The notes under the pieces are model-generated. The model saw nothing but the letters and a program-made list of their open reading frames with translations, had not been told where the DNA came from and did not search any database. Position numbers and translations under genes: made by a program. 64,000 bases of DNA, taken from contig NZ_AP025628.1 of NCBI RefSeq assembly GCF_025999835.1, positions 992,001 through 1,056,000 of the forward strand, written 5' to 3'. Below, in pieces: positions 22,261 through 40,088 of this stretch. Position 1 is the first letter of the stretch; every line of letters begins with the position of its first letter. Source of the stretch: Caldinitratiruptor microaerophilus. GTDB taxonomy: Bacteria > Bacillota > Sulfobacillia > Symbiobacteriales > ZC4RG38.

Positions 22261-23070
22261 GTGGGCGGTAAACCCATTCGGATTGTCGTGGTGGAGGATC
22301 AGCCCCGGACGGGGGAGACGCTCAGGCGCCTGTTGGGTGGCCAGCCGGACATGCAGGTGGCGGCGCTCGTCACGGACGGGGCGGAGGCCGTACCGGTCAT
22401 CACCCGGGAGCGGCCCGACGCCGTGACGCTGGATCTCGTGCTGCCCCACCTGGACGGGCTGGCCGTGCTCGAACGCCTGGCCGGCCTCCAGCTCGAACGG
22501 AGGCCCCGCATCGTGGTGGTCACCGCGCTGGGGAGCGAGGCGGCCCTGCGCCGCGCGCTGAGCCTGGGGGCCGACTACTACCTGCTCAAGCCGTTCCGAC
22601 CGGAGGTCCTGGTCGAGCGGATCCGCCAGCTCGTGCGCCCGGCGCCCGAGCCGGGCGGCTTGACGGCCGCGGGGCCGGGGGCCCGGAGAGCGCCCCTCTC
22701 GCCGCCGTCGCCCGAGCGGCAGCGCCTCGAGGCGGAGGTAGGGCGGATGATCCACGAGATGGGGATCCCGGCCCACATCAAGGGGCACCGGTACCTGCGG
22801 GAAGCCATCCTGCTTCTCCTCGACCGGGACGGGGAGATCGGAGGCATCACGAAGGAGGTGTACCCGGCGATCGCCCGGGTGCACCAGACGACCCCGAGCC
22901 GGGTGGAGCGGGCGATCCGCCACGCCATCGAGGTGGGCTGGAACCGGGGCAACACCGAGGTCCTGGCGAGCCTCTTCGGCCACAGCGTGAGCCGGGAGCG
23001 GGGCAAGCCCACCAACGCGGAGTTCATCGCCATGGTGGCGGATCACCTTAGAACCATGCGGGTTTCGTGA
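22261..23070 (+). CDS. spo0A: Sporulation master regulator Spo0A, C-terminus rewritten by an integrated element
   Basis: 269 residues from GTG 22261 (B. subtilis Spo0A has 267); this start places the phospho-acceptor Asp at residue 58 (TLDLVLPHLDG), next to the D56 of B. subtilis. The receiver domain (IRIVVVEDQP at the start, KPF near residue 107) is followed by a linker and the DNA-binding domain with the signature TTPSRVERAIRHAIEVGWNR and the segment KPTNAEFIAMVADHL. The gene's last 39-bp conserved stretch is the left attachment site of a 17-kb element; beyond it the reading frame continues into element DNA for RTMRVS and stops. The displaced native tail, LRLLARSG, is preserved at 40064-40088. 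The protein should fold, but its extreme C-terminus differs from the ancestral one. Confidence 0.93.
   Translation: MGGKPIRIVVVEDQPRTGETLRRLLGGQPDMQVAALVTDGAEAVPVITRERPDAVTLDLVLPHLDGLAVLERLAGLQLERRPRIVVVTALGSEAALRRALSLGADYYLLKPFRPEVLVERIRQLVRPAPEPGGLTAAGPGARRAPLSPPSPERQRLEAEVGRMIHEMGIPAHIKGHRYLREAILLLLDRDGEIGGITKEVYPAIARVHQTTPSRVERAIRHAIEVGWNRGNTEVLASLFGHSVSRERGKPTNAEFIAMVADHLRTMRVS
23010..23048. repeat. attL core: 39-bp direct repeat in spo0A
   Basis: Bases 23010-23048 are identical to 40025-40063. The repeat begins CACCAACGCGGAG and ends GTGGCGGATCACCT, and codes for the conserved Spo0A segment TNAEFIAMVADHL. The sequences diverge on both outer sides at the first base, as expected for integrase-made attL and attR. 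Confidence 0.95.
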
Positions 23071-23086
23071 ATCAACACCCCCCGTC

Positions 23087-23110
23087 TTGTGTGCGCATGG
23101 TGTGCGAACT
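23087..23110. promoter_or_regulatory. Candidate integrase arm sites near attL
   Basis: TTGTGTGCG at 23087-23095 and GGTGTGCGAACT at 23099-23110, just inside the left end. The same TTGTGTGCG occurs inverted twice upstream of int (24323-24331 and 24335-24343) and as TTGTGTGCGAACT inside the right end (39902-39914). Repeats of this kind flanking both ends are typical of integrase or excisionase arm sites. Confidence 0.55.
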
Positions 23111-23119
23111 GCGAGCGAC

Positions 23120-24268
23120 TCACCGCACCGACCCGGGCTTCCGCCTGGCGAACAGGGCCGCCTCGACCTTCTCCGCCGCCGCCTTCTGCATGCCCGGGGC
23201 CAGGTGGCTATACAGGTCGAGCGTCATGCTGATGCTGCTGTGGCCGAGCCGCTCCTGCACAACCTTCGGGTGGACGCCTTCGGCCAGCATGACGCTGGCT
23301 GCCGTGTGCCGCCATGCTTTGTGGGAGGAGAGGACCGGTAGCCCCGCGCGCCGCATGAGGGTCTTGAGCCGCTTGTTCACGTTGCTGCGGTCCTCCGGGG
23401 AACCGTCCGCCCGGCAGAACACCAGCCCGTGGTCCTGCCAGTTGGGTCCGGCCTGGAGGCGCAGTTCGTTCTGCCGCGCCTTGTGCTCCCGAAGCGCGCG
23501 CACCACCTCGGGGCTTAGGTCCACGCGGCGGGCGCTGCTCTTCGTCTTGACCACCTTGAGGTAGACCCGGCGGTTCTCGTCCACGGCCTGGGTGTGCCGG
23601 ATGGAGATGGTGCCTGTGGTGAAGTCCAAGTCGTCCCACCTTAAGGCGCAAATCTCGCCAACCCGCATCCCGGTTGTGAGCCCCAGGAGCACGGGGATGT
23701 AGAGGTCCGTGCCCTCCGCCGCCTCGAGGAGCCGGGCCGCCTGGTCGGGGGTGAGGGCCTGCACCTGGCGCCGCTGCACCCTGGGCAGGTCCGCGCCCGC
23801 CGCGGGGTTCGAGGTGATCAGCTTCCACCGCACGGCGGCGGCCATCGCCTGGTTCAGCACGGCGTGCACGATCCGGAGGGTCGCCGGCGCCTTGCCCTGC
23901 TCGCGCAGTTCGGCGTAGAAGTCGTTGATCGTCAGCGTGTTGACCTTGGAGAGGGGGAGGTACCCGAGCGCCGGCTTGATGTGCTTGTCGGCCGCCCACC
24001 TGTACCGCAGGAGCGTGGTCTTGGAGACCCGCTGCTCCGCCCAGTCCCGGAGCCACCGGTCAAGCAGTTCGCCCACGAGCACCTTGGACGGCTCGACGTA
24101 GCCGCCTGCCTCAATTTCCCGAACCCAGTTCCGCAGCTCCGCTTCGGCCTGCTTCTTGGTGAGGCCGTGCACGGTCTTTGCCTTGTACTGGCGCTTGCCG
24201 TTCACCTCGCCCAGGTACACCCGCAGGAGCCAGGTCTTTTCTCCCCGCTGGATCAGCTGCCCCCGCAT
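23120..24268 (-). CDS. int: Tyrosine recombinase / integrase
   Basis: 382 residues, ATG with a GGGGG-type SD. Phage-type integrase with an N-terminal arm-binding domain (GEVNGKRQYKAKTVHGLTKKQAE), a SAM-like core-binding domain (about 60-160) and the catalytic domain with Arg in TGMRVGEICALRW, the HxxR box as SHKAWRHTAAS, the LGHSSISMT box and the nucleophile Tyr in LDLYSHL. It lies 72 bases from the attL core and is transcribed towards it, the usual place for an integrase that recognises this site. Read-through from spo0A would run antisense into it. Confidence 0.95.
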   Translation of the reverse strand: MRGQLIQRGEKTWLLRVYLGEVNGKRQYKAKTVHGLTKKQAEAELRNWVREIEAGGYVEPSKVLVGELLDRWLRDWAEQRVSKTTLLRYRWAADKHIKPALGYLPLSKVNTLTINDFYAELREQGKAPATLRIVHAVLNQAMAAAVRWKLITSNPAAGADLPRVQRRQVQALTPDQAARLLEAAEGTDLYIPVLLGLTTGMRVGEICALRWDDLDFTTGTISIRHTQAVDENRRVYLKVVKTKSSARRVDLSPEVVRALREHKARQNELRLQAGPNWQDHGLVFCRADGSPEDRSNVNKRLKTLMRRAGLPVLSSHKAWRHTAASVMLAEGVHPKVVQERLGHSSISMTLDLYSHLAPGMQKAAAEKVEAALFARRKPGSVR

Positions 24269-24595
24269 CTTGCCAACCCCCTACCCGAACTCTGGCAATC
24301 TGAGCGTATCATAGGCAATGTCCGCACACAAGGACGCACACAACGCGGCACACATGACCCGATAAGCCGCTGTGATAGCGGACTTGCACCGTCAACGCCA
24401 TTTCGCTAGTGTTCATCGCCAATCATTCAAATCTGGCATACCTCGGGGCAGTTCCATGCCGCTAGCGTATGGAACCTCGCTGGCACCCGCGACAAAGCCC
24501 CGGTTGCCCGGGGCCTCGCCTACCGAAACGCCACCCTCGATGTGAAGCCCCCGGGCCAGTGGCCCAGGGGCTCAGCAATCCTGATACCCTTCCGT
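24269..24595. other. Intergenic region upstream of int
   Basis: Holds no gene. It contains the CGCACACAA arm-like repeats (24323-24331, 24335-24343), an inverted pair GTTCCAT (24451-24457) / ATGGAAC (24469-24475) that uses the same motif as the iterons at 35.5 kb, and two hairpins at 24497-24572. Confidence 0.6.
24497..24572 (-). terminator. Two terminator hairpins after the 24.6-25.6 kb leftward genes
   Basis: 24546-24572 forms an interrupted stem AGCCCC/GGGCC with GGCCC/GGGGCT. 24497-24514 forms GCCCCGG-loop-CCGGGGC, followed on the minus strand by TTTGTC. They end the three-gene leftward operon before int. Confidence 0.65.
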
Positions 24596-24934
24596 TCACT
24601 TCGCCGCCGCCGTGCCGGCGTCCTCCCCCTCGTACGGGTCGAACATGACGCGGACCACAACCTCCCGCACGGCCTCCAGCCCGGGCAGAGCGCGCCGGTC
24701 GCCGTGCTGGTTCTCCAGGTACCATGTGTCGCCGTTGCGCACGAGCCAGCCGAACCGCTCCTCGCCGTCCACGACCGCCAGCACCAGGTTGGCGTCCTGC
24801 GGCGGGCGGTACTCGACGGCCTGGCAGAGCAGCGTGTAGCCGGGCTTGATGTCGCCGAACCCTTCGAGCTCGGGGCCGGCGGTGCGGGAGCGCCAACCCT
24901 GGTAGTCGTGGGTAGTCAGTGTCTGGTTCGGCAT
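24596..24934 (-). CDS. Hypothetical element protein, 112 aa
   Basis: 112 residues; its ATG overlaps the stop of the gene before it (ATGA). The middle, IKPGYTLLCQAVEYRPPQDA then VLAVVDGEERFGWLVRNGD, has the alternating strand pattern of an S24/LexA-like fold, but no Ser-Lys dyad can be assigned, so this is only a likeness. Last gene of a three-gene leftward set (25556 to 24596) with overlapping starts and stops. Confidence 0.65.
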   Translation of the reverse strand: MPNQTLTTHDYQGWRSRTAGPELEGFGDIKPGYTLLCQAVEYRPPQDANLVLAVVDGEERFGWLVRNGDTWYLENQHGDRRALPGLEAVREVVVRVMFDPYEGEDAGTAAAK

Positions 24935-25556: not shown

Positions 25557-25590
25557 CGGCGTCACCTCCTGAGCAACACCATAGCAGGTG

Positions 25591-25649
25591 TACGTCAATA
25601 CGTCAATACGTCAGGAGCGTTTGACGCATCGACGTATTGCTGCCATAAT
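25591..25649. promoter_or_regulatory. TACGTCAA iterons overlapping a sigma-A promoter
   Basis: Three direct octamers at 25591-25614 (TACGTCAA, TACGTCAA, TACGTCAG) and an inverted copy around 25631-25639 (GACGTATTG). A rightward promoter TTGACG (25621-25626), 17 bp, CATAAT (25644-25649) is interleaved with them. The layout points to autoregulation of the ribbon-helix-helix gene and control of the divergent gene at 25556. Confidence 0.65.
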
Positions 25650-25668
25650 CAGGGCGGGTGATGAACGG

Positions 25669-25836
25669 ATGGAGAAGAAGCGCAGTCTCACGCTGCGACT
25701 CGAAGAGCGCGTGTATAGGGCCTACCGCGTATGGCTTGCCGAACGCGGGCGCACGGCGCAGGAAGACCTTGAGGAGTGCGTCCTCCGCCGCCTCCAGGAC
25801 GCCGGCCGCCTGCCGAAGGACGAGCGGCCACGGTAG
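25669..25836 (+). CDS. Small ribbon-helix-helix (Arc/CopG-like) DNA-binding protein
   Basis: 55 residues from ATG 25669. A basic beta strand (KKRSLTLRLEE), then two helices (VYRAYRVWLAERG and AQEDLEECVLRRLQD) fit the ribbon-helix-helix fold, which binds short direct or inverted repeats as dimers. It is the only rightward gene in the element. Iterons lie in its promoter and three strong palindromes lie just downstream, so a role in autoregulation, copy control or partition is possible. The SD is weak. Confidence 0.65.
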   Translation: MEKKRSLTLRLEERVYRAYRVWLAERGRTAQEDLEECVLRRLQDAGRLPKDERPR

Positions 25837-26798: not shown

Positions 26799-29693
26799 TC
26801 AGTTGCTTGCCTTCCTGGTCTTCGACAGCTCCCGCTTCGCGGCCTCGATCAGCTTGTCCGTCCGCGCCAGCCTGGCGGCCTTGGCCCTGGCGCTGCGGAT
26901 GAGGTAGTCGGTCCTCGCCGTCCCGCCCGGCGCGGGCGACCGCCTCGCGATCTCCTGGAGGGTTGGCCACGGGCGGCCAGAAGCCCGCTGTAGGTCCTGG
27001 AGCCGCCGGGCCTCCGCCTCCGCATTCCGCGCCCGGTTGTACTCGGGGTCTGCCGCATAAACCCCTGGCACAAACTGCCGCACCAGAGACGTTGCCCCCG
27101 CCGCCTTCTCCCACGGTTCGCCGGTCGCAAGCCGCCACGCGGCCTGCGCGGTCTCGCCCGGGCGGCCGCCGTATGCTCCCAAGGCGAACTTCGCCACGTC
27201 TCCCGGTCCCCGGAACGGGCGCTGCGTGCGCGGGTCGACCTGGGTGAACGCGGCGCCGATGGTCTGCGGGATGGGGCCACCGGCCCCGCGGACAGACTCG
27301 CCCGGCTGCTCCACAATCGACAGCGCGCTCATCACCGGGTCGATGCTGGCCGGGCCGGCGATCACCGGCAGCCCCATCGCGGTCGTGCCGACGGGCATCC
27401 CGTAGCGGAGCCACTCCGGGCGCTCCTCCCGGCCCCGTCGCGAAGCCTGCTCGTAGGCGTTCAGGTAGGCCCGGTACAGGGTCGGGCGGCGCAGGAAGTT
27501 GGTCGTGTGGAGCACGAGGTTGTTCCGGTGGAAGACCCAGAAGGGGATGAGGTACTCGCGGATCGTGTTCTCCAGCGCCCCGTAGCTCTCGGGTCGGTAG
27601 TCGAATTGCGTTCGGAACACAGCCTGAGCGGCCTGCTGTGGGGTTTCCCCTTTCGCGAGCCGGTCGATGAAGATCGCCAGACGGTTGGCGTCCTCGACGG
27701 CCTCGTTCGAGCGGACCACGAACGAGCCGAACCGTTTCGCCGCGGGGAGTTTCCCGACGGCCTGCTGCGCCTCGGTCAGCAGGTTCTCCGTGCCGCGCAC
27801 GTCCCGGACGATGGACTGTAGCGCCCCCGTCTCCTCGGCGGCCCGGACCACCTCAGCGAAGGTCATCGGCCCGCGCGGGGTCTGGACCACGCCCTGGAGT
27901 GGCCTGCGATAGAACCGCTGTGCGGCGATCTTCAGGGCCGGGCCGTAGGCGCTCGGGTCCATGCCCCACATGATGTTGTTCACGAAGCCGCCGATAGCGT
28001 TGTTGATCGTGAAGCCGGGGAACCGCCAGAGGGTCGTGGCGCGCTTCCAGAAGCTGTGGAAGTCCCGAACCGCCTTCGCCAGTCTCGCCGCGCCGTCATC
28101 GGTCCCGAAGGTGATGACGTACCGGCTCATGGCGTCGAAGATCGGCTTGGGCAGCACCGACGCACCCTCTGGCACAGGGCCGGACTTGATCGGCACGAGC
28201 CCTTCCGTGGGGCTGTAACGGGCCGCCACGAACCCTTCCTGTGCCAGTTCCTCCACCGTGCGCCCCGTGGCCGGTCGCCCGAACCGCTGCAGGGCCTGCT
28301 TGATGTAATCGTCCAGGACGATACGCTGCTGCGCTGCTGCGGCCCGAACGGCCAGGGGAATGCGGAAGTCCTGACGGTAGGCGGGGACGCTCTCCCCGGC
28401 CTCGCGGAGCTTGGCGAGTTCGTCAATCGACAGTTCCGGCTCCACCACGCGGGCCTTCGTGAACGGGTCACGCCCCCGCCACAGGTTCCGGGCGGCGATC
28501 CGCAGCTTCTCCGTCAGGGGTCGGCCTTCGACGATGCGCGGGAAGTACGCCTCGCGGGCCTCCAGGGGAATGCCCCGCTTGGCGTACTCCCTGGCGATCT
28601 GCTGCGTCAGTTGCCGCCCCTGGATCGCCGCCCTTGCCACCCGTGGTTCGACACCGTACTGCCCGACGAGGAACGCTTCGGCCTTGTCGAGGTCGACCGT
28701 CGGGCGGCGGACCGGCACCTTGCCACCGGCCTTGGCCCGCATGGCCTCCAGGCGGCGCTGCACGGCGGTGGGTTGCTTCGTAGGGGCCTCGCCCACGGCG
28801 CGGCTCAGGAGCCGATCCAGGGGTTCTGTGGGGCGGAATGTGCGCGGCGTGCTGGCCCGCTGAAGCGCCACGTCCACCGGGGCGGTGGGGTGTTCAGGAC
28901 CCAACCGTTCCATGAGTCTGCGGGCGGCCTGCTCCTGTTCCGGGGTCAGGCCCTCGCCGATCCTCAGTCCCCGTGCGATACCCTCCTCCGCTGCCCGCTG
29001 GCGGGCTAGACGAAGGCCCTGAACCATTTGCCGGGCCTCGGCGGCTTGTTCTCCGCGCTGGACCAAGCGCGCGACCTGCGGCACGCCGCGGACCGTCCGT
29101 GAGGCGGCGCCGATGACCTTGCCGGCAACGTCGGGGGTGGCGGCAGCCGCCGCGAAATCGGCCAGCGCCGCCGTCGTCGGATGCCGCTTTGCCCACTCGG
29201 GGTACGCCTCGGAAAAGAGGTTGCCGTAGGTCTCGCCGCGCCAGCCGCGCCGGAATCCCTCGCCGAAGGCGCGCCACACCTCGGGGTCGGTCAGGGCCAG
29301 TCTCCCCGGCCTCTCGGCCCGCTCCGACGCCGCCATGGCGCTGAAGAGTGCTCGGCGGGGCGTGTCGATGGCCCACAGGCCGCGCCCGACGAAGCTAGCC
29401 ACCTTCTGCCCGAGCGTCCGTGGGGCGGGCTGTCGGTACGGGTCGGTCAGGTAGCCGGTGATCGTGGGCGGCGTTTCGGCGCGCCGGATCTCCTCTTCGG
29501 GCACACCCGCCGCCCGCGCCCGCACCTTCAGGGCCTCGGCCTCGCGCTGGGATTTACGAAGGCGTTCCTCCTCTTGCGTCAGCGCCGGGCCGGCCGTCTC
29601 CACGGAGCGGGGCGCGCGGAACGTAACCGTTGGTAGCGCGCCCCGGTTCCTCTCCGCGAGCCTTGCGGCCAGCCATGCGTCGGTCCTGGCCAC
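26799..29693 (-). CDS. Large element protein, 964 aa, polyvalent-protein/virion-associated type
   Basis: 964 residues. No enzymatic motif is visible. The N-terminal 500 residues are Arg/Glu/Ala-rich and helical. The C-terminal half has a distinctive stretch (DFHSFWKRATTLWRFPGFTI then NNAIGGFVNNIMWG, later FDYRPESYGALENTIREYLI and PFWVFHRNNLVLHTTNFLRR), which resembles the domains found at the C-termini of large phage polyvalent or internal-virion proteins (LPD38-like is my best guess, from memory). Such proteins can be injected with phage DNA. It is the last gene of the leftward late operon, 6 bases after the 717-aa gene. A portal or capsid role is not supported. Confidence 0.75.
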   Translation of the reverse strand: MARTDAWLAARLAERNRGALPTVTFRAPRSVETAGPALTQEEERLRKSQREAEALKVRARAAGVPEEEIRRAETPPTITGYLTDPYRQPAPRTLGQKVASFVGRGLWAIDTPRRALFSAMAASERAERPGRLALTDPEVWRAFGEGFRRGWRGETYGNLFSEAYPEWAKRHPTTAALADFAAAAATPDVAGKVIGAASRTVRGVPQVARLVQRGEQAAEARQMVQGLRLARQRAAEEGIARGLRIGEGLTPEQEQAARRLMERLGPEHPTAPVDVALQRASTPRTFRPTEPLDRLLSRAVGEAPTKQPTAVQRRLEAMRAKAGGKVPVRRPTVDLDKAEAFLVGQYGVEPRVARAAIQGRQLTQQIAREYAKRGIPLEAREAYFPRIVEGRPLTEKLRIAARNLWRGRDPFTKARVVEPELSIDELAKLREAGESVPAYRQDFRIPLAVRAAAAQQRIVLDDYIKQALQRFGRPATGRTVEELAQEGFVAARYSPTEGLVPIKSGPVPEGASVLPKPIFDAMSRYVITFGTDDGAARLAKAVRDFHSFWKRATTLWRFPGFTINNAIGGFVNNIMWGMDPSAYGPALKIAAQRFYRRPLQGVVQTPRGPMTFAEVVRAAEETGALQSIVRDVRGTENLLTEAQQAVGKLPAAKRFGSFVVRSNEAVEDANRLAIFIDRLAKGETPQQAAQAVFRTQFDYRPESYGALENTIREYLIPFWVFHRNNLVLHTTNFLRRPTLYRAYLNAYEQASRRGREERPEWLRYGMPVGTTAMGLPVIAGPASIDPVMSALSIVEQPGESVRGAGGPIPQTIGAAFTQVDPRTQRPFRGPGDVAKFALGAYGGRPGETAQAAWRLATGEPWEKAAGATSLVRQFVPGVYAADPEYNRARNAEAEARRLQDLQRASGRPWPTLQEIARRSPAPGGTARTDYLIRSARAKAARLARTDKLIEAAKRELSKTRKASN

Positions 29694-29699
29694 GCGTCA

Positions 29700-31853
29700 T
29701 CACCTCAGCAGTTGCCCGACGGTCGGGCGCGCTGTCCGAGCCACCTGGTCGATCCACCGGAGGACGGCGTGCGGGTCAACGCCAACCGCCTGGAGCGCCT
29801 CCCGGTTGTCCCAAACGTCGGACTGCGCCTGGTCGATGGTCTTGGAGCCGTCCTCCAGGTCGGCGGCGAGGTTGCGAATGTAGTCGAGCGTCGCGTCCCC
29901 GCCGCTAGAACCGCTACCCCGCGCCCGGCGCTGGGCCTCCTGGCGGCGGATCTCCAGTTCCTTTGCGCGGTAGTCCGTCTCGAGCTGGAGTTCGAGGAGC
30001 TTCAGTTCCTGCTCGTACTGCCACTTCTCGTCCTCTTTGGCGTCGCGGTACTGCTCGTAGAGCCGGTCATACTCCTTCAGGCGCCGCTCAATGTCTCGGT
30101 CGTACCGCGCCACCGCGTCCTCGTACTGCTGGCGGCGCTGTTTCACCCTCATCTCCATGAACGCCTTGGCGAAGTCGGCCCTGCGCTTCTCGTAGTCGAG
30201 GGCCGCCTCGGCCTGGCTCTTCGCCGCCTGGGAGTAGAGGTCGCCGGCGGTCTTGAGCCGCCACTCCCGGATCTGGTTCAGCCGCGTCTCGAGCTTGTCC
30301 CGCAGGGCCTGGAGGCGCTGGGCCAGGATCTTTTGCTGGTCCGTCAGTCCCTGCTTGCGGATGCGGTTCTCCAGTTCAAGAAGGATGCCCGACTCGAACA
30401 GGCCCCGCCGGTTCAGGTCCTCACGGGTTGCCTGGAGCGTGAGTTCCATCTGCTCCCGGAGGACACGCAGGGCCTCTTCGGTCTGCGGGTCCAGGACGGT
30501 CTGCTGCTTCTCGAACTCCTGCCGGATCTCTTGTTCGAGCTGCTTGGCGAGTTCGAGGATCTGCGACGCGGCGGCCGTGAAGTACGCCTGCACGTCGATG
30601 GGCTCGTTCTGGATCGCCCGGAACAGGGCCGCGCCTTCCTGCAGGTCGGAGCGGAGTTGTTCGGCCGACTCCGGCTCGTACGGCGCCGGCGGCTCGGGCA
30701 GCTCAGGACGCCCGGGCGGCTCCTCCGGCGGTAGGAGCCACGCGGGCGGCTCGGAAGGCGGAGGCTGCGGGGGCTCCTGGGGCGGGGGCTGCGGCTGGGA
30801 CGCTCCTCCGGCTCCTGTGCGGCCCGTTCCCGCCGATCCTGCCGGGCGCGAAGGCGCCGCCGCTCCCGTCTGCGCCGGGGCCATGCCGCCCGTAGGGGCA
30901 GTGGCGGGCCGCTGCGGAAGCCCCTCGGGCCGCCCCGTGGCGATCTGGTTAGCCGCCCGCTCGGCCTCCTGGGCGTAGTTGCCGAGCCGCGCCCGGATCT
31001 GGTTCGCCCGCTCGTGAGCCTGCTGCATGGCGGCGGTGTCGCCCCGGGCCTGTGCCTCCATCCAGGCCCGCTTCGCCGCCGCCAGTTCCATGATGGCGTC
31101 GTTCACCTCGGCGGGGCGGGCCGCCTCGGCGTAGGGCGTCGTCCGGGGCATGGTCCCGGTGCTGCTGTAGGCGCTCGTCATGACCGCGGAGCGGAACGCC
31201 TTCGGCCCCTGCTGGACCGAGCCCAGGATGGTGTTCATTTGCTCGGCCTGCCGCTGAATGTTCGCTTCCCGGTTCAGGAAGTAGTCGAGGCCCGCGGGGA
31301 GTTTTGGTGCCTGCGGAGCCTGGGGTAGGCGGACGACGGACGGGACGTAATCCGATCCTTGGGACCCAAGTCGCCGCTGGATCGCCCCAAGCCCAGGGGA
31401 TTGTGCTTCGGTACGGCGCACGTCACCCATCCCCGCACCTCCGGACGGACGGGAAGGCGCGGGCGCACGAGGAATCTGTGCCAGTCCTTCATTCACCGAC
31501 GTGCCTACCGGCGTCCGGTCACGACGCGGCGTGGAAGGCGTAGACGGACGGCTCGGTGCAGACGGCGCAGGACGGCTCACGAGCCCTTCCGGCCTGCCGG
31601 TCGCCATGCGGTTCGCCTCGGCCTCGTTCGCGCCCATCGCCCGAAGCTGATTCGCACGGGCATGGGCCGCGGCCATAGCGGCGGTGTCGCCGCGCTGGCT
31701 GGCGGCGATCCAGTCCTGCTTCGCCTTCGCCAGTTGCTGCGTGAGGGAAGCGGTATTCGGCTTCGGAGCGGGCTTGCTGGCAGCCTGCACGTCGCCCATG
31801 CCGGGCTTCTTCTTGGTGCTACCGCCGAACCCTGCTCCCGCTGCGATGGCCAT
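29700..31853 (-). CDS. Large coiled-coil element protein, 717 aa
   Basis: 717 residues, ATG with GGAGGTAGAGC upstream. The first 350 residues are Pro/Ser/Ala/Gln-rich and contain two copies of a module of about 45 residues built as KAKQDWIAASQRGDTAAMAA...ARANQLRA and AKRAWMEAQARGDTAAMQQA...RANQIRA, each followed by ATGRPEGL. A Pro-rich hinge (about 330-385) leads to a long coiled coil (about 390-660, QEIRQEFEKQQTVLDPQTEE to LEIRRQEAQRRARG). The C-terminus is a short helical tail. This looks like a virion scaffold, tail-fibre-like or adhesion protein. A similar RGDAAAMQ module occurs in the Tad protein at 50069-51883. Confidence 0.75.
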   Translation of the reverse strand: MAIAAGAGFGGSTKKKPGMGDVQAASKPAPKPNTASLTQQLAKAKQDWIAASQRGDTAAMAAAHARANQLRAMGANEAEANRMATGRPEGLVSRPAPSAPSRPSTPSTPRRDRTPVGTSVNEGLAQIPRAPAPSRPSGGAGMGDVRRTEAQSPGLGAIQRRLGSQGSDYVPSVVRLPQAPQAPKLPAGLDYFLNREANIQRQAEQMNTILGSVQQGPKAFRSAVMTSAYSSTGTMPRTTPYAEAARPAEVNDAIMELAAAKRAWMEAQARGDTAAMQQAHERANQIRARLGNYAQEAERAANQIATGRPEGLPQRPATAPTGGMAPAQTGAAAPSRPAGSAGTGRTGAGGASQPQPPPQEPPQPPPSEPPAWLLPPEEPPGRPELPEPPAPYEPESAEQLRSDLQEGAALFRAIQNEPIDVQAYFTAAASQILELAKQLEQEIRQEFEKQQTVLDPQTEEALRVLREQMELTLQATREDLNRRGLFESGILLELENRIRKQGLTDQQKILAQRLQALRDKLETRLNQIREWRLKTAGDLYSQAAKSQAEAALDYEKRRADFAKAFMEMRVKQRRQQYEDAVARYDRDIERRLKEYDRLYEQYRDAKEDEKWQYEQELKLLELQLETDYRAKELEIRRQEAQRRARGSGSSGGDATLDYIRNLAADLEDGSKTIDQAQSDVWDNREALQAVGVDPHAVLRWIDQVARTARPTVGQLLR

Positions 31854-32674: not shown

Positions 32675-32822
32675 GCCGCTCGTCCTCCTTCGGGGTCTTT
32701 TCGGTCGGGCACGTAGGGGTGTAGCGGGGCGCCGTTTTTGTGCATGGGGGCTGTTCTCGAAACTGGCTTCTGTGGCGGGCTTCAGGGTTGGAAGAAAGTG
32801 CTAAAGCGTGACATGCAGCCCC

Positions 32823-33227
32823 TCAGGCGGCGCCCTCGCGCTGCCTTCGCTTTCGCTGTCGGGCCGCTTCGCGCGCGGCGGCCTTCATGCATGCCGGGCA
32901 ATAGCGCTGCCGGTTCGAGCGGCGGTCGAACGCGGTGCCGCACCTCTCGCACTGGCCCCGCAGGACCGTGATGGCCAGGGCGGCTTCCCGCTCCCGGCGG
33001 CTGAGTTGCCGCCCCTCGGCGTCCGCCTTGCGCTCCGCCCAGTACAGCTTCTCGAGCTGCGGGTCGAGGGGTAGGACAGCTTGCTCGAACCACCTGCACC
33101 TGGGCAGCCGGCCCTCCGGCGGGGCGAAGTACCGGCACGGCGCGTCGGCCGGCAGGCAGCGGTCAGGGCCGGAAAAGTTGGCGCACACCTCAGCGACCAG
33201 GCCCTTCACCGTCCGGGTCCGCACCAT
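32823..33227 (-). CDS. Cysteine-rich zinc-finger phage protein, 134 aa
   Basis: 134 residues from ATG 33227, which follows GAGGAGG and overlaps the preceding gene by 38 bases. It has a Cys pair pattern CANFSGPDRCLPADAPCRYF near the N-terminus and a C-terminal CERCGTAFDRRSNRQRYCPAC zinc finger followed by a very basic tail (AAAREAARQRKRRQREG). Small Cys-rich proteins of this form are common in Firmicutes phages; their role is unknown. The longer upstream open frame overlaps the RinA-like gene and is not coding. Confidence 0.75.
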   Translation of the reverse strand: MVRTRTVKGLVAEVCANFSGPDRCLPADAPCRYFAPPEGRLPRCRWFEQAVLPLDPQLEKLYWAERKADAEGRQLSRREREAALAITVLRGQCERCGTAFDRRSNRQRYCPACMKAAAREAARQRKRRQREGAA

Positions 33228-33642
33228 CCCCGTCCACCTCCTCGGCCAGGATGTAGGCCGTGCTCCGTAGCACTTGCTGCAGCCACCGGGCTGCCGCCAC
33301 CGGGTGCAGGCCGGCCTTCTTTGCTGCGGCCCGCACCGGAAGCGTGGGCGCCGTCCAGAACGTGAGCCGCACGAGGCGCTGCACCTCATCGGGGAGCCCG
33401 CGGACGAGGCTCCAGGTCCGGAGCGCCACCCGGCGCCGCTGGCCCTCGGCCAGCAGTCGGGCCGCCGCCCGGTGCGTCGGGTCCGGTACGCTACCCCTGT
33501 CCCGGCGCGGGCTCACCACGATGCCCTTCGCGTGCCGGTAGGCCGCCCATTCGGCCAACTCGTCCTGCTCCCGCAGCAGGTCGGGCAGGTCCCGCAGGAA
33601 CGCCGCCGCCTCGTCAAGCCACGTGCTGGCGGGCAGGGCCAT
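33190..33642 (-). CDS. RinA/ArpU-like phage transcription regulator, 150 aa
   Basis: 150 residues. The C-terminal half (LVRLTFWTAPTLPVRAAAKK, AGLHPVAAARWLQQVLRSTAYIL) has the sigma-70 region-4-like helix-turn-helix of RinA/ArpU proteins, which switch on late or packaging genes in Firmicutes phages and satellites. It lies near the start of the leftward late operon, the expected position for a late activator. Confidence 0.7.
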   Translation of the reverse strand: MALPASTWLDEAAAFLRDLPDLLREQDELAEWAAYRHAKGIVVSPRRDRGSVPDPTHRAAARLLAEGQRRRVALRTWSLVRGLPDEVQRLVRLTFWTAPTLPVRAAAKKAGLHPVAAARWLQQVLRSTAYILAEEVDGDGADPDGEGPGR

Positions 33643-33651
33643 GGGCGCACC

Positions 33652-33999: not shown

Positions 34000-34033
34000 G
34001 GTGGCACCTCCGCTCATGTGTTCGCTTGGGTCC

Positions 34034-34049
34034 AGCATAGCAGCTATGC
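34034..34049 (-). promoter_or_regulatory. Extended -10 promoter with overlapping palindrome for the late operon
   Basis: Read leftward, TGCTATGCT is an extended -10 (TGN-TATNNT) with a weak -35 (TTCCCA) 17 bp upstream. The -10 lies inside the palindrome GCATAGC-A-GCTATGC (34035-34049), which would let a repressor or activator control it. Confidence 0.5.
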
Positions 34050-34723
34050 CATTGACTGGGAAGCGCGGTGTGAAGGCGGCGGTCGCGCGTCCCTACCCAT
34101 AAGGGTGAGGGCGGCGCGCGGGGACCCCAGGAGTCCCAGGAACCAGCACGGGGCACCAGCCGGGGCGAATACTTCGCATAACGTTGCGAAGTTGGCCTCG
34201 TGCCTACGGCGATGCGGGATGCGCGGCGCGCAGGCGAGCATGGGCACGGCCCGCACACAGCACCGGCGACCAACCGCAGATTCATGGCGCACGCCTGAGC
34301 CCGCTTCACAGGCCGTGTCCAGGGTGGCGGTGTGCGGGTTGTGTGCGGACGGGCTGCCTGCGTGTGACTGCTTGACTGGACATTTGAGGGTCGCGCCGCG
34401 CGCTTAGAACCATGCGGTGTCCAAATGGTGTTCAGGAACCGTTCAGGAACGCCAGCCATCCCTTGGTACCTCATGCCGTCCAGCCTGCGGGTCGGCCGGG
34501 CGGCCCCGGCTCCCTGCCGCCCCCGCGCGAGCCCGTGTCGCATGTGCGGAAAGCCCACACCCCGCCGCCTCCCACTTCCCGACACGAACCTCTTCCAGCC
34601 CGCTTGCATGGCGGTTTGCACGCCTCTCACGCCTCCGTCCAGAGCCGAATAATCGTCAGCAGATAGGTGCTTCATGTGCGTGTAGATCCGAACAATATGC
34701 GCGCGATGCGTGGTGAATGTACG
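34050..34723. other. Non-coding region between late and early modules
   Basis: No gene with phage-like codon pattern and SD was found in 670 bases. It holds the palindrome ACTTCGCA-TAACGT-TGCGAAGT (34171-34192), an arm-like TTGTGTGCG (34339-34347), the 15-mer CTTAGAACCATGCGG (34403-34417) that is also found across the attL junction (23047-23061), and a tandem GTTCAGGAAC pair (34430-34450). Confidence 0.6.
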
Positions 34724-34927
34724 TCAGAAGCTGAGGAACTCTTGCCCATTCACGAGCACGGTCGTGCGCACCGCGCCCCCGCACCGCGGGCACGGCTTCG
34801 CCTTGCGGCCCGGGTGGCGGGTTTTGGCCGCTTGGGCGTAGACGAAAGGTATCTCGTCGCCCACGTGGAGTTCCTCCGCGGTCCAGTGGCATTTCTGGCA
34901 ACGGCGCTTCACGGTCGTCGCGATCAT
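34724..34927 (-). CDS. Small zinc-ribbon protein, 67 aa
   Basis: 67 residues from ATG 34927, overlapping the stop of the next upstream gene (ATGA). Two CxxC pairs (CQKC and CPRC) spaced by about 34 residues form a zinc ribbon. Last gene of the leftward early/replication group. Possibly a nucleic-acid binding accessory protein. Confidence 0.7.
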   Translation of the reverse strand: MIATTVKRRCQKCHWTAEELHVGDEIPFVYAQAAKTRHPGRKAKPCPRCGGAVRTTVLVNGQEFLSF

Positions 34928-35121
34928 GCCGCGCCGCCTCCCTCGCGAATCGGCCGGGAGATGATCTCCACGTCCCGGCTCTTGCACACCGGGCACCGCT
35001 TCAGCCGCTCCGCGAGCTGCCGCTGCCGGCGCTCGGCCATGCGGCCCGGGGGCACCAGTTCCAGACGTGCAGTAAGGCCGCAGGTGTGGCAGAGCTGGAC
35101 GAGTTCGAGCACCGAGAGCAC
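34924..35121 (-). CDS. Small zinc-finger protein, 65 aa
   Basis: 65 residues. CHTC near residue 11 and CPVC near residue 43 make a zinc ribbon. Overlaps the following gene by ATGA and lies just before a 91-aa gene. Function unknown; the pair of ribbons suggests regulators or helpers in replication or transcription. Confidence 0.68.
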   Translation of the reverse strand: MLSVLELVQLCHTCGLTARLELVPPGRMAERRQRQLAERLKRCPVCKSRDVEIISRPIREGGGAA

Positions 35122-35124
35122 CTC

Positions 35125-35400
35125 CTAACGTCCGCTGGGGCGAGAGTTTGCCAGCGCCGTCCACGCGGCCAGGGTTTCGTCGTCGGGCTCGTCCGGCGCC
35201 ACCTCGAGACGCCAGAGGCCACCCGGTCCGCGCCAGAGTCCGTTGCCGACCGCCTGGAACCTTGCGGGCTTGCCCTTGGCCCCCCGGGCCGTGAGGTCGC
35301 CACCTCTTGCTTCGTCCGCCAGGAGCGCCCCAGCGGGCGCCTGTTGCCCGGGCCTGAAGGCGTAGAGGACGTTGCCGGGTTTGATTTGTGCTTGAACCAT
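35125..35400 (-). CDS. Hypothetical element protein, 91 aa
   Basis: 91 residues from ATG 35400 with GGAGGT upstream. Compact, beta-like sequence (PGNVLYAFRPGQQAPAGALL, GNGLWRGPGGLWRLEVAPDE). No domain recognised. Transcribed from inside or beyond the iteron region. Confidence 0.65.
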   Translation of the reverse strand: MVQAQIKPGNVLYAFRPGQQAPAGALLADEARGGDLTARGAKGKPARFQAVGNGLWRGPGGLWRLEVAPDEPDDETLAAWTALANSRPSGR

Positions 35401-35436
35401 AGCGGCGAGACCTCCAATCGAAAGACATCTCTGTCA

Positions 35437-35611
35437 GTTCCATTTCGGGGTGGAACCAAAGGAGGCCGGTGGAACCTGTTCGCGCCGCTTCGGGAGCCGG
35501 TTTCAGGTTGGTTCCACGTTCCGCCCCCCCCTTATAAGGGGGGCGGTAACGTGGAACCTGAAACCCGGCGTTCCATGGAACCGACATGGAACCTCAATGG
35601 AACCTGGAACT
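35437..35611. promoter_or_regulatory. Candidate replication origin: TGGAACC iterons around a large cruciform
   Basis: Within 175 bp, TGGAAC(C) or its inverse occurs about ten times: 35437-35442, 35451-35457, 35470-35476, 35510-35516, 35552-35558, 35570-35575, 35576-35582, 35587-35593, 35598-35604, 35605-35611. In the middle an imperfect inverted repeat spans 35501-35563: TTTCAGGTT...CCGCCCCCC on the left and GGGGGGCGG...AACCTGAAA on the right, meeting at CTTATAAG. The array overlaps the 3' end of the helicase gene, a usual place for iteron origins. Confidence 0.7.
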
Positions 35612-37006
35612 GACGGAATCTTTGCCACGGTCAGTCAGTCTGAACCTCTTTCGCTTCAGGTCCTTCGTCACGTAACCCGTGGCCTCCAGGTCCCGAAGAA
35701 TCCGACTCAGCGTCGCCTTCGGAGTCTTGGTCGTCTCCTCGAGCTGCGACCACGAGACGCCGTCGCCGTGGTCGAGGTCGTAGATGGTGTCGATGACCTT
35801 CTGCTGGTTTGGCTTCAGGTGGCCAGACTCCAGCGCCTCGATCCGCTCCCGGTGGGTCTCGAACCGCACCACGCAACTCGTCTGCCCGTCCGGCAGGTTC
35901 ACGACCTCAAGCTTCAGCGGAAGCGGGTCGAAACGCGCGCCGTAGCGCATGGCATCGCAGGAGAGGGTCAAAGAGCCGCTGTCATCCACCAGCACGAACA
36001 TGCCGTCCACGGCGCCACGGAGGGCCGTGCTGCCGCGTTCCTGCTGGCCGGCCTTGTTCGTATGGTGCAGCACGAGCACGGCGGCGCCGGTTTCGGCACG
36101 GATGCGGTCCAGGGCCTGCACGGCCTCGCCCACGTCCTTGGCGCTGTTCTCGTCCCCGGCGGGCAGGCACCGGGCGAGGGTGTCGAAGATGATCAGCGCC
36201 GGCGGTTCCGGCATTGTGGCCGTGTACTGAAGGAACCCGTCCACGTCGGCCTGCGACAGCAGGTTGACCGGCCGCAGCACGAACGTGACGGCATCATCTG
36301 GCACCGGGACGCCGCGGTGCTGTTCTAGCCATGCCCGGATGCGGTTGCTGAGGTCGCCCTGACCTTCGGCGAGCACATACACCACGCGCCCCTTCCGGGT
36401 GGCGTGCCCCATCCAGACGACTCCGGAGGCCACGTGGAGCGCCAGATCCAGGGCAAGGAAGGACTTGCCGGTCTTTGGCTGGCTGTATAGCACCGACAGG
36501 CTACCCCGCACCGCCACGCCCTCGATGAGCCAGTCCGGCGCCGGCATGTCCAGCACGTCGCGGATGCTCAACCCGGCGAACTTCGTGGGCTCCCGTGGAC
36601 GCTCCCCAACCTGCTCGCGCCTCTCCGCGCGCGCCCTCTCCAGGCGTGTGCGCCAGCCGGGTTCGAGCACGTCCCGAAGGTCGGCGAAGTTCTTCCCCTG
36701 GCAACCGTTGTGGTGGCACCCCGCCGAGATGTGACCGTCGGGCCACTGGATGACGAAGGCGCTGCGGTTCGTATGAGCCGGATTCCAGGGGCAGGGGTTT
36801 AGGATGTACTTGGTGGCGCCGTTCCCGTAGGGACCTTCGGCGACGATTGGAGCGCCGTGTTGGCGCAACCACCACCCGACATCATCGATCCAAAGCGGCC
36901 CCAGGTCCTGCCTTCTGGCCGGCCGCTCCGGCGCTTTCTCGGGCGGCGCCAGGGCCAAGAGCTGGTCCATCATCTCCAGCGTGACGATGCCATCCTCAAG
37001 GCTCAT
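35594..37006 (-). CDS. RecA-fold replicative helicase / RepA-like ATPase with C-terminal winged helix
   Basis: 470 residues. The N-terminal part has a Cys/His zinc-binding pattern around CPWNPAHTNR and GCHHNGCQ, seen in phage primase-helicase relatives. The centre is a RecA-type ATPase (RepA/AAA_25 group) with Walker A SQPKTGKSFLAL near residue 170, Walker B LIIFDTLARCLPAGDENS and a following VLVLHHTNKAG sensor. The C-terminal 90 residues look like a winged helix (WSQLEETTKTPKATLSRILR, DLEATGYV). It probably unwinds the element origin whose iterons overlap its 3' end. Overlaps the primase gene start by ATGA. Confidence 0.85.
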   Translation of the reverse strand: MSLEDGIVTLEMMDQLLALAPPEKAPERPARRQDLGPLWIDDVGWWLRQHGAPIVAEGPYGNGATKYILNPCPWNPAHTNRSAFVIQWPDGHISAGCHHNGCQGKNFADLRDVLEPGWRTRLERARAERREQVGERPREPTKFAGLSIRDVLDMPAPDWLIEGVAVRGSLSVLYSQPKTGKSFLALDLALHVASGVVWMGHATRKGRVVYVLAEGQGDLSNRIRAWLEQHRGVPVPDDAVTFVLRPVNLLSQADVDGFLQYTATMPEPPALIIFDTLARCLPAGDENSAKDVGEAVQALDRIRAETGAAVLVLHHTNKAGQQERGSTALRGAVDGMFVLVDDSGSLTLSCDAMRYGARFDPLPLKLEVVNLPDGQTSCVVRFETHRERIEALESGHLKPNQQKVIDTIYDLDHGDGVSWSQLEETTKTPKATLSRILRDLEATGYVTKDLKRKRFRLTDRGKDSVSSRFH

Positions 37007-37719
37007 GCGGCTCGCTCCTTGGCCAAGTAAGGAGGCACGTACAGAATCCGGCTCAGCCGGTGCGGGCGCTCCGGTGTGCTGTCGCCCTTGCGGGACGTGG
37101 TTCCGTAAAGTTTCCAGATGCGCGCCGCGTTGGCGACACTCGTGTCGATGGACACCATCCGGTCGGAGAACTGCGAGGCGAGAGTCTTGAGGACGCGCTC
37201 AACCGTCTGCCGGGCGTCGTCGTTGTTTGGAAGGTCGATGCGGTAGAGCAGGTGCGCGCCGTTCCCCGAGTCGGCCATGACCGGTTCGGGCCATCCGAGC
37301 CCCGCAAGGTGATCGAAGATCCTCGCCTGGGCCTGAAGGGCCAGGTCGTGCTCCAGGTCGGTGGACGAGACGCCGGACGGGCGCACCGGGTCCAGGTCGA
37401 TTGGCAGCCAGCGCCTGCGGAGGATGTCCTGGTCCGATGTGGACGACTCGCCTTGCTGAACGGGCACGCGCAGCCGGTTGGCGGCCCGGGCGAGCACGTC
37501 AGGGCGGACGGGGTTTAAGGTGACGTATACCCCCCGGCTCCGCCCGTCCCACTCGGCCGCTGCCTGGACCAGATCTTCGAGATGGTCGTAATCGTAGTAG
37601 CCGGAAAGGGTTCCGACGCGGCCACGGGCATACTCGGCGCCCACGATGCGCAGCTCCGTGACCCCGCCGGGCTCGACCAGGATGTGCAGCGCCCGGCGGA
37701 TCTCCGCCGGGTCAGCCAT
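37003..37719 (-). CDS. Primase-polymerase-like replication protein (AEP fold)
   Basis: 238 residues. The segments VYVTLNPVRPDVLARAANRL, WLPIDLDPVRPSG and ADSGNGAHLLYRIDLP are typical of the archaeo-eukaryotic primase-like proteins found next to RepA-type helicases in phages and plasmids; DLDPVR carries the expected metal-binding Asp residues and SIDTSVANAARIWKLYGT the nucleotide-binding Arg region. It would prime replication of the element. Coupled to the helicase gene by a 4-base overlap. Confidence 0.8.
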   Translation of the reverse strand: MADPAEIRRALHILVEPGGVTELRIVGAEYARGRVGTLSGYYDYDHLEDLVQAAAEWDGRSRGVYVTLNPVRPDVLARAANRLRVPVQQGESSTSDQDILRRRWLPIDLDPVRPSGVSSTDLEHDLALQAQARIFDHLAGLGWPEPVMADSGNGAHLLYRIDLPNNDDARQTVERVLKTLASQFSDRMVSIDTSVANAARIWKLYGTTSRKGDSTPERPHRLSRILYVPPYLAKERAA

Positions 37720-38212
37720 CGCGGGTCGCCCCTTTCGCCAGGCGGTCGATTAGCTCCGACGCCTCGGCCCGATTGGAGGGGGGCGAGCCGGCGTACCCAA
37801 GGCGGTACAAGTAGGCAAGCTGCCGCTCGGTTGGCGGCTGATGGGCCATCCACTCCCGGCGGTAACGCTCCGCGCGTTGTACCTTCACCTGCTCACGAAC
37901 GCCGGCAGGCAGTGACGCCCAGGAAATCGCCCACGATGCGAAGCGCCGCGCCTCCTCGGGGTGGGCCTCGATCACGTCCCGGATCTCGACCAAGGCGTCC
38001 AGGTCGCGCCCACCCCAGTACATGGCCTCTCGGATCCGCTGGTCTAGGTCTTGTCGGACGTGCGCCAGCAAGGCGTCGGACGAGACGAGGCGAAGATTTC
38101 GGGCGGGCACTGTGAACAGGTTGACGACGCGACTCCGGCGCTCCGTGGCGAACCGGGAGAGGAATTGATCCCGGAACTTGCTGGTAGCCGAGCCATCGTG
38201 TAGAGTAAGCAC
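37712..38212 (-). CDS. Hypothetical element protein, 166 aa, with a C-terminal PTxxQLAYLxxLGY motif
   Basis: 166 residues from GTG 38212, chosen because GAGGTGG lies 5 bases upstream; the longer frame overlaps the SSB-like gene. The C-terminus PTERQLAYLYRLGYAGSPP resembles short motifs at the ends of many phage early proteins. The middle is helical and charged. It lies between the SSB-like and primase genes, so a recombination or replication role is likely but not proven. Confidence 0.65.
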   Translation of the reverse strand: MLTLHDGSATSKFRDQFLSRFATERRSRVVNLFTVPARNLRLVSSDALLAHVRQDLDQRIREAMYWGGRDLDALVEIRDVIEAHPEEARRFASWAISWASLPAGVREQVKVQRAERYRREWMAHQPPTERQLAYLYRLGYAGSPPSNRAEASELIDRLAKGATRDG

Positions 38213-38264
38213 GAGAGCCACCTCACGCGAGAAGCGCCAGCCGCCCCAACGGCGGGCGCCTGTC

Positions 38265-38636
38265 TCAGAACGGGATATCGTCTTCCTCCTCAGCACCGGA
38301 TGCGGCCGCGTCCCAGTCGAAGTTGCCGCCTTCGGTAACCACCGTGTAGGCCTGGTACGAAGCCCCGTTACGGCCTGTCTGCTTGCCCAGGTACTTGATC
38401 CCGATCTTCTGCCCAACCTGTGGCCGCCGGCGGGCCAGTTCACGCCGCAGCACGGCGTGGCTGGCCCATACGGCCACGAGCGGGCCGCCGTCGTCAGGCC
38501 GTACCGTGACGACCGGGACTGCCCCGTAGCGCGTCGCGAGGGTCTCGATCCGCACCACGACGCCGACCAACACGCCGCCGGGTTCCGGCCGCCAGCTCTC
38601 GGGTTGGGGCTGGTTCAGGAGTTCCCGCAGGTCCAT
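38265..38636 (-). CDS. SSB-like OB-fold protein with acidic tail
   Basis: 123 residues from ATG 38636 (AAGGAG 10 bases upstream). Strand-rich core (GVLVGVVVRIETLATRYGAV, PVVTVRPDD, QKIGIKYLGKQTGRNG) fits an OB fold. The C-terminus EEEDDIPF is the classic acidic tip by which single-stranded DNA-binding proteins recruit partners. Most likely the element's SSB. Confidence 0.75.
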   Translation of the reverse strand: MDLRELLNQPQPESWRPEPGGVLVGVVVRIETLATRYGAVPVVTVRPDDGGPLVAVWASHAVLRRELARRRPQVGQKIGIKYLGKQTGRNGASYQAYTVVTEGGNFDWDAAASGAEEEDDIPF

Positions 38637-38657
38637 TGAAGTGCCGCTCCTTTCATA

Positions 38658-38684
38658 CCCCGCCGCGCTACCGGCGGGTTTTTT
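38658..38684 (+). terminator. Rightward-facing hairpin with T-tract
   Basis: CCCGCCG-loop-CGGCGGG followed on the plus strand by TTTTTT (38679-38684). It faces against the surrounding leftward genes and could stop antisense transcripts, or act as a leader hairpin for the SSB-like gene. Confidence 0.5.
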
Positions 38685-38692
38685 CCCGTCTG

Positions 38693-38890
38693 TTACGCGC
38701 CCCGCCGCCACCCGCCGGGCAGGGCCTGGCCGCCGGCTTCGATCCATCGTTCCACGGCCAGGCGGTCGAAGCGAACCGACCGGCCTACCCGCACGTGCGG
38801 GATCAGCGACTGTCGAGCTAGCTCGTACACCCGCTCTACCCGCAGCCCGTACTCTGCGGCGATCTCCCGGGCCGTAGCCAACCGGGCCAT
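38693..38890 (-). CDS. MerR/AlpA-type excisionase-like DNA-binding protein
   Basis: 65 residues, ATG after GGAGGTGAGACG. A compact helix-turn-helix ATAREIAAEYGLRVERVYEL with the wing VGRSVRFDRLAVERWIEAGG identifies the excisionase/MerR-like family. It likely aids excision or regulates the early operon, of which it is the first gene. Confidence 0.85.
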   Translation of the reverse strand: MARLATAREIAAEYGLRVERVYELARQSLIPHVRVGRSVRFDRLAVERWIEAGGQALPGGWRRGA

Positions 38891-38960
38891 CGTCTCACCT
38901 CCGGATCATCGAGGGGTGGATCGTATCGTCAACCACATCATCGCCTGGCAACGACTGGGT

Positions 38961-39000
38961 GAAAATGAGAAAACGCTCCAGCGCGTTTTTGCCGGAGCGT
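38961..39000 (-). terminator. Rho-independent terminator, leftward
   Basis: Stem 38973-38982 with 38991-39000 (ten pairs, one G-U), followed on the minus strand by TTTTCTCATTTT. It ends the transcript of the 259-aa gene and separates it from the excisionase operon. Confidence 0.8.
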
Positions 39001-39018
39001 CCTACGGCGAAGCCAGTT

Positions 39019-39798
39019 TCAGGGTTGTTTCGACTTTGGCCGCCCTCGCGGCCGAACGGGGATGGCCAGGAGCCTTTCTACGCGGTTCACGGCTTCAAGG
39101 ATGGGGCGAACGTCAAGCTGCCAGGCCGGGCGTGAGTCGGCGCCGGGCAGCAGCTCCAGCGGCGATTCGCCGCCCAGCCGGGTGCGGATGAACGCCTGTA
39201 TGTCCTTCGTGAGGGCCGAAGGGCGCTGGGCCTGCGCCGGCAACCCGTGCTCCTTCGCCCATCGTGCCAATGCGGGCAACAACCGCCTCAGCTTCGGATG
39301 GTACTGCGCGAACGGCCGCACCGCCGCCACCGAGCCCCTCCAGCCGGCAAACGACGGGCTGCGCCCTCGGATCGGGCGGAGGCGTACCGGCGGGAGCGGG
39401 CAGCATGCGCCCGCGAGGTCATCGCCGGGAACGAACCAGAGTTGCGAGGGCACAAGCCGTCTTCGAGCCCACGCGACGAGGGTGGCCAAGGCCACATGGC
39501 CTAGCCACGGCCCTTGGAGACACCATCGGGCCTGCCACTCGGCGATGTCCGCGGCCAGGGCGGGCGGCGCGTCGCTGGGCTCAATCACATCGGGCGCCGG
39601 CAAGGCGGCCAGCGCTGCAGCGTGCCGGTGCCAGAGCGCCCGGAGGTCATCAGCCCAGGTCGCGACCCGCCAACGCACGGCTTCCGGGTAGGCGGTGTCG
39701 CCCCCCAGGACCGCGTCGATCTCGAGCACGAACGTGACCCGGGCGTTCCACCGCTCGACCATCTCCCGGTAGGGATTCCCCCCACCGCCGTCGAACAT
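39019..39798 (-). CDS. Hypothetical element protein, 259 aa
   Basis: 259 residues, ATG with AGGAGG 8 bases upstream. Trp- and Arg-rich with a middle CCPLPPVRLRPIRGR segment and a basic C-terminus (IPVRPRGRPKSKQP). No family recognised. It is a single-gene unit next to attR with its own terminator, a common place for cargo or superinfection genes in phage-like elements; no anti-phage domain could be identified. Confidence 0.6.
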   Translation of the reverse strand: MFDGGGGNPYREMVERWNARVTFVLEIDAVLGGDTAYPEAVRWRVATWADDLRALWHRHAAALAALPAPDVIEPSDAPPALAADIAEWQARWCLQGPWLGHVALATLVAWARRRLVPSQLWFVPGDDLAGACCPLPPVRLRPIRGRSPSFAGWRGSVAAVRPFAQYHPKLRRLLPALARWAKEHGLPAQAQRPSALTKDIQAFIRTRLGGESPLELLPGADSRPAWQLDVRPILEAVNRVERLLAIPVRPRGRPKSKQP

Positions 39799-39816
39799 CG
39801 TGCTTGCCTCCTACCC

Positions 39817-39859
39817 GGGGCGGCGCTCAACCTCTGGCAACACAGCGCCGCCCCTTTTT
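39817..39859 (+). terminator. Strong rightward terminator near attR
   Basis: GGGGCGGCGCT and AGCGCCGCCCC (39844-39854) form an 11-bp perfect stem followed by TTTTT (39855-39859) on the plus strand. It would stop rightward transcripts leaving the element for the host gene at 40216. Confidence 0.75.
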
Positions 39860-40024
39860 CGTTTCGGCCTACCCCCGGGAGTACCCTTCTCCGCGCGCGG
39901 ATTGTGTGCGAACTCGACCCAAAACGGCCGATTTCAGGGCACCTGGGAGCAACTCCCAAAACCAGCTATCCCGCATGGGAAGCGGCCGGAGCGGCTTGGT
40001 TAGCGGCACGCGGGAACCGGGCAA

Positions 40025-40063
40025 CACCAACGCGGAGTTCATCGCCATGGTGGCGGATCACCT
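40025..40063. repeat. attR core: second copy of the 39-bp repeat
   Basis: Identical to 23010-23048; the following bases are host spo0A sequence. Confidence 0.95.
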
Positions 40064-40088
40064 GCGGCTGCTGGCGCGGTCCGGCTGA
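40026..40088 (+). pseudogene. spo0A: Displaced native 3' end of spo0A
   Basis: In frame, the repeat continues into TNAEFIAMVADHL-RLLARSG and a stop at 40086-40088. This is the pre-integration spo0A tail, now without a start. Leu after Arg matches the conserved ADKLRL of other Spo0A proteins. Excision would restore it. Confidence 0.9.

Follow-up and report, generated by a model that had tools for sequence, protein, structure and literature searches.

The window, a stretch of 64,000 nucleotides from Caldinitratiruptor microaerophilus, carries an intact spo0A frame on the plus strand (22144-23070), the start codon being uncertain between GTG at 22144, ATG at 22219 and GTG at 22261. In a Pfam search, Response_reg (6e-23) and Spo0A_C (4.3e-39) covered the product over its full length. 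The gene is one open frame that runs through the left copy of a 39-bp repeat (23010-23048, plus strand, within the spo0A codons TNAEFIAMVADHL) and ends ..EFIAMVADHLR-TMRVS. The right copy (40025-40063, plus strand) is identical in 39 of 39 bp and lies 17,015 bp away, which is also the core-to-core length of the element between them. The frame through the right copy reads ..EFIAMVADHLR-LLARSG, and its last part (40064-40088, plus strand, reading ..LRLLARSG with the stop at 40088) is the stranded original 3' end of spo0A. Both sides are thus the same up to and including HLR, and the difference is confined to the end, TMRVS versus LLARSG.

By exact-match count the 39-mer occurs at only these two sites in the one-contig genome of 3,599,694 bp, and the pair is by far the longest exact direct repeat within 22-41 kb. 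A tyrosine integrase of 382 aa (23120-24268, minus strand; PF00589 (Phage_integrase) 6.8e-31, PF14659 (Phage_int_SAM_3) 6e-10, phrog_1 4.5e-85) is convergent with spo0A. GC content is slightly lower inside the element (0.65-0.72) than on the left flank (0.71-0.74), and no tRNA gene was found in the window. A previous sequence-only reading of this DNA had described the identical repeats, an integrase by the left copy and a displaced in-frame tail beyond the right one, all of which are confirmed here. Its conclusion that an element had integrated site-specifically at the 3' end of spo0A, swapping the last codons, is supported by the repeats, the integrase and the stranded tail, and its view of the element as the source of the new tail was borne out, with the five codons after the shared HLR coming from the element.

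The locus was compared with its counterparts in G001 and G002, which belong to the same family, and in G003 and G006 of the same order. In all four, a homologue (66-74% identity) of the sigma-54-dependent PAS regulator found at 40805-42973 (plus strand) directly follows spo0A, and spoIVB lies on the other side of spo0A, as in the window. Since spo0A there directly abuts the gene that here follows the element, the 17 kb is, judging by gene order, absent from the relatives. The nearest relatives, which are uninterrupted, end ..ADKLRMEMKAS; a TMRVS end in relatives free of the element, named by the sequence-only reading as an observation that would speak against integration, did not occur. The locus thus combines direct-repeat att sites, an adjacent integrase, a restored frame, a displaced end and an uninterrupted counterpart in relatives, as expected of a tyrosine-recombinase element in the 3' end of a gene.

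It is extremely unlikely that the repeats instead arose by segmental duplication of the spo0A end or by an assembly error. The genome is a one-contig assembly, the two copies have distinct flanks, and integrase and excisionase-family genes lie at the two ends of an insertion placed exactly between genes that are adjacent in relatives. The same anatomy is, moreover, found in many other genomes.

Genes carried by the element

Near the right end, 38693-38890 (minus strand) encodes an excisionase-family HTH protein of 65 aa (TIGR01764 4.7e-08, above cut-off; HTH_17; phrog_66). Overlapping it is a 160-aa ORF (38265-38747, minus strand) that matches a family of unknown function (phrog_28379, 7.5e-07) and may be SSB-like. 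Phage-type replication genes follow on the same strand, for a primase/polymerase-like protein, weakly matched (37003-37719; phrog_2478 8.7e-04), and a helicase/primase-type ATPase with a C-terminal winged helix (35594-37006; AAA_25 3.9e-44, phrog_906 5.3e-50). Between the helicase gene and a 128-aa ORF, 34044-35590 is without convincing coding assignment and is a possible site of gene loss. Further to the left are an ORF with a Cys_rich_VLP domain (32823-33389, minus strand; PF14194 7.3e-07, barely over the curated cut-off), a 717-aa coiled-coil-rich ORF without family match (29700-31853, minus strand), a 964-aa protein likewise without family match (26799-29693, minus strand) and a small ORF (25588-25836, plus strand) whose sole match, phrog_11411 with an E value of 0.15, weakly suggests an Arc-like DNA-binding protein.

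The 964-aa protein shares 26% identity over about 340 aa with the product of 35650-38970 in NZ_CP054610.1, a phage-plasmid of Paenibacillus cellulosilyticus, in which this remote relative adjoins the lysis genes, just upstream of them. No relative was found in viral contigs or phages, and plasmids and the class gave one weak match each. The phage-plasmid has terminase and lysis genes, and no other gene in common with the window element was found; the 717-aa protein did not match the neighbour of the 964-aa relative there.

The element had been called phage-like, and this stands as far as the phage-type integrase, helicase and primase-like genes are concerned. It does not extend to virion genes: no PHROGs or Pfam match to terminase, portal or capsid was obtained in the element, a search in which very divergent genes could be missed. 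A complete temperate phage or prophage, which calls for a recognisable terminase, portal or major capsid gene, was accordingly rejected as an identification. Compared with PICI-like satellites, the size and the replication genes would fit, and no satellite-specific match was seen. No defence system was found in the element. It is probably a degraded prophage, a remnant or a satellite, and the label phage-derived draws on the integrase, the replication genes and the single 26% match.

With an integrase and an excisionase-family gene both present, excision of the integrant would be reversible in principle, and the element presumably retains the ability. A mobile element in a sporulation gene that carries an excisionase-family gene also brings to mind developmental elements such as skin, which uses a large serine recombinase. 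By that reading spo0A would be interrupted and excision needed during sporulation to restore its function, which we regard as scarcely credible. The spo0A frame is complete with the element in place, and the action of spo0A precedes the stages of skin excision. Furthermore, a tyrosine integrase lies at the att site, whereas yin has a serine recombinase (PMC10747680).

Recurrence of integration at the spo0A 3' end

The sequence-only reading had proposed a survey of other genomes for integrases and split spo0A tails. Occurrences of a degenerate pattern, EFIAM(V/I)A(D/E), were counted across the phylum (398 genomes) and in 346 genomes of Paenibacillales, the order of one positive genome, and each pair was inspected. 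Recurrence was evident: a complete spo0A with a stranded tail downstream on the same strand was present in 25 of the 346 Paenibacillales genomes, at a distance of 1.4-62 kb and with a tail of 20-99 codons. Two genomes stood out in the phylum sample besides the window. G365, which is among the 25, has a full prophage of 39.7 kb with a 62-bp core running through the stop codon; in G231 the locus is split over two contigs, with the start of an integrase after spo0A and host genes past the second copy. G541, whose short contig has a pair of partial tails separated by 113 bp, was excluded from the count, and G578, G671, G724 and G766, in which the copies are on different contigs, are candidates only. 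Also dropped were G526, where contigs overlap, G202 and G309, each with a pair of full-length paralogues, and G629 and G786, in which EFIAMVAE belongs to another protein. Two genomes, G857 (L174-L177) and G855 (L161-L162), hold two tandem elements and three spo0A ends each, and the tandem elements of G857 carry different integrase types.

The integrases at these sites are of at least three types. Type A is a single Xer-like integrase directly after spo0A; with one genome per species, the end of spo0A lay just upstream in 48 of 50 loci of this family. Its hosts include Paenibacillus, Bacillus spizizenii TU-B-10, Virgibacillus, Halobacillus, Anoxybacillus, Fictibacillus, Viridibacillus, Tumebacillus, Shimazuella, Desulforamulus, Vallitalea and others. 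In type B an integrase lies at the far end, and one or two more usually follow spo0A (G365, G573, G816, G847, G749, G857). Type C is the window integrase, at about 24% identity to the other types. In a tree it groups (99/100) with phage integrases located away from spo0A and apart from the Paenibacillales types, a tree of few sequences with two very long branches that shows the separateness of type C and not the full history. Membership of the window integrase in the type-A family was rejected on the same identity and separate clade; by its sequence it is an independent lineage with the same target as type A. None of the 29 loci examined for its relatives had one at spo0A, and neither a second copy of the window element nor one of its integrase at spo0A was found in the sets searched. 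Three more integrases of its family, 36-46% identical, are encoded in the same genome (3092689-3093840, 2674307-2675425 and 3476712-3477692). On the evidence of these sequences, integrases of at least three lineages use the 3' end of spo0A, a recurrent attB in Bacillota.

The stretch around MVAD is common to all pairs of intact and stranded ends, so all cases probably share one exchange point. In all 25 Paenibacillales cases, which look independent of one another, the intact gene ends EFIAMVADKLRIE[HN]KVS, and the last 17 codons specify one protein sequence. Intact and stranded tails in these cases differ by 72 synonymous and 7 non-synonymous codons (75 and 11 with the window included), and all 7 non-synonymous differences fall in three degenerate stranded copies, those of G611 and G767 and the third copy of G855. 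Such mostly synonymous divergence fits selection on the element for a working spo0A end, that is, preservation and not tuning. The window is the sole case seen with a changed Spo0A end.

The cargo at spo0A includes prophages as well as restriction systems. In B. spizizenii TU-B-10 (NC_016047.1, L247:7163-18526), spo0A and a type-A integrase are followed by hsdM, hsdS and hsdR of a type I restriction-modification system, and the gene order beyond these is that found after spo0A in B. subtilis 168; no stranded spo0A tail was seen in TU-B-10, which leaves the right end undefined. Among 144 ORFs scanned from spo0A elements were type I restriction and methylation genes, HerA, SIR2, reverse transcriptase, AriA, ShosA and Mrr, together with phage portal, capsid and baseplate proteins, all of them matches of single genes that do not by themselves prove complete systems.

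Among the viral contigs, 36 stretches contained the pattern, and 32 of these carry a spo0A end. In L119 (4230-5406), L121 and L130 (4173-5365), an end of 23-45 codons has phage late genes on one side and a type-A integrase on the other, the rest of spo0A being absent, an arrangement as expected of attP, although a tandem integrant would look alike locally. The viral contigs tested were without terminal repeats, and the search yielded no complete circular genome carrying attP. In L112 and L140 (IMGVR_UViG_2879489548_000001), integrases stand on both sides of the spo0A end, one of type B and one of type A; neighbouring integrants have probably been read as one virus. The GenBank phage set was discarded as evidence for free phages. 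Its 11 Spo0A matches are all 'Bacteriophage sp.' from human faecal samples, and the five records examined (MT835504.1, MT835781.1, MT835737.1, MT835715.1 and MT835718.1; L242-L246) contain the whole of spo0A amid bacterial genes such as spoIVB and recA, and no integrase, which marks them as bacterial contamination.

The exchanged Spo0A end and its context

Conserved genes are familiar targets for integration at their 3' ends, and spo0A decides whether a spore former sporulates. It is very probable that a 17-kb phage-derived integrative element entered spo0A by way of an attP carrying a copy of the spo0A 3' end, as part of a recurrent strategy. We infer that the tyrosine integrase recombined this attP and the chromosomal spo0A, with strand exchange somewhere inside the 39-bp core. 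Upstream of the exchange spo0A would be host DNA and downstream it would consist of the element's codons and stop; an intact and presumably working Spo0A-TMRVS would still be made, while the old host tail would be left past the element. With the gene kept whole by the attP copy, the integrant would not be selected against.

The sequence-only reading had further suggested that the element may silently tune sporulation, with reference to the A257V allele of B. subtilis. A257, which we take to be the second A of EFIAMVAD, is in a helix that lies inside the identical core and is hence unchanged. Among the tails of 29 relatives, it is the residues after LR that vary most in length and sequence, and [KR][AV]S endings are the commonest (15 of the 29), which the element-borne RVS fits and the old end RSG does not. 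With tails so variable among relatives and RVS matching the commonest ending, the element-borne end looks like a normal Spo0A end. Silent tuning is left unsupported by the variability of the replaced residues, the unchanged A257 helix and the conservation of the restored end in the 25 Paenibacillales cases.

More broadly, an effect on sporulation could be supposed to be the reason why the element sits at spo0A, the output of Spo0A being shifted to its benefit by the new tail, by loss of the terminator and 3' UTR, or by timed excision. The tail does differ here, with TMRVS for LLARSG, and phage control of sporulation by carried regulators has been proposed (PMC10294663). Moreover, spo0A is 50 bp from the convergent integrase, and no intrinsic terminator was matched between them; this is a weak point, since none was matched at the displaced end either, so that the scans are uninformative. 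The changed residues, however, all belong to the non-conserved tail, the end is unchanged at the protein level in the 25 Paenibacillales cases, and conservation of the site alone explains the convergence of three integrase lineages. We therefore consider an effect on sporulation improbable as the reason for the location. The mechanism is very probably ordinary site-specific integration in which the target gene is repaired, and the wider use of spo0A is the main result.

We tentatively propose, at somewhat less than even odds for the whole, that phages and defence islands across Bacillota convergently use the spo0A 3' end as a general landing site, and that some 'truncated spo0A genes' of phages are attP-borne ends and not regulators. 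The landing-site half is supported by the present survey. The last codons of a master regulator would then often be phage-borne and exchanged by lysogeny, and reports of phages carrying truncated spo0A for sporulation control would have a testable alternative. The spo0A site would also offer a ready way of locating prophages and defence islands of Bacillota, and spore formers could gain a genetic tool in an integrase family whose chromosomal target is predictable. No published report of integration at spo0A was found in open-access full texts (subscription papers and preprints being outside this scope); spo0A as a docking site for mobile DNA is apparently unreported, and its novelty provisional.

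Among the closest parallels are prophages and islands, such as e14 and phage 21 in icd of E. coli, that insert at the 3' end of a protein gene and repair it. Like the window element, they have a tyrosine integrase by the att site, direct repeats, element-borne codons that keep the frame and a displaced original end. They differ in that the target here is the sporulation master regulator, and in that integrases of several unrelated lineages converge on the spo0A site across Bacillota.

Elements are known in the sporulation genes sigK, spsM, spoVFB, gerE and yabG (PMC10747680). With skin, vfbin, yin and SP-beta (PMC10747680, PMC4191935), the window element shares the placement of mobile DNA in a sporulation gene; those elements, however, split their gene until excision, whereas the window element, with its tyrosine recombinase, leaves spo0A intact. 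Finally, human-gut phages carry truncated spo0A homologues consisting of the effector domain only, which were reported as regulators (PMC10294663). The present cases resemble these in that phage DNA holds a piece of the 3' part of spo0A, but the pieces found here are mostly short tails that appear to serve as att sites.
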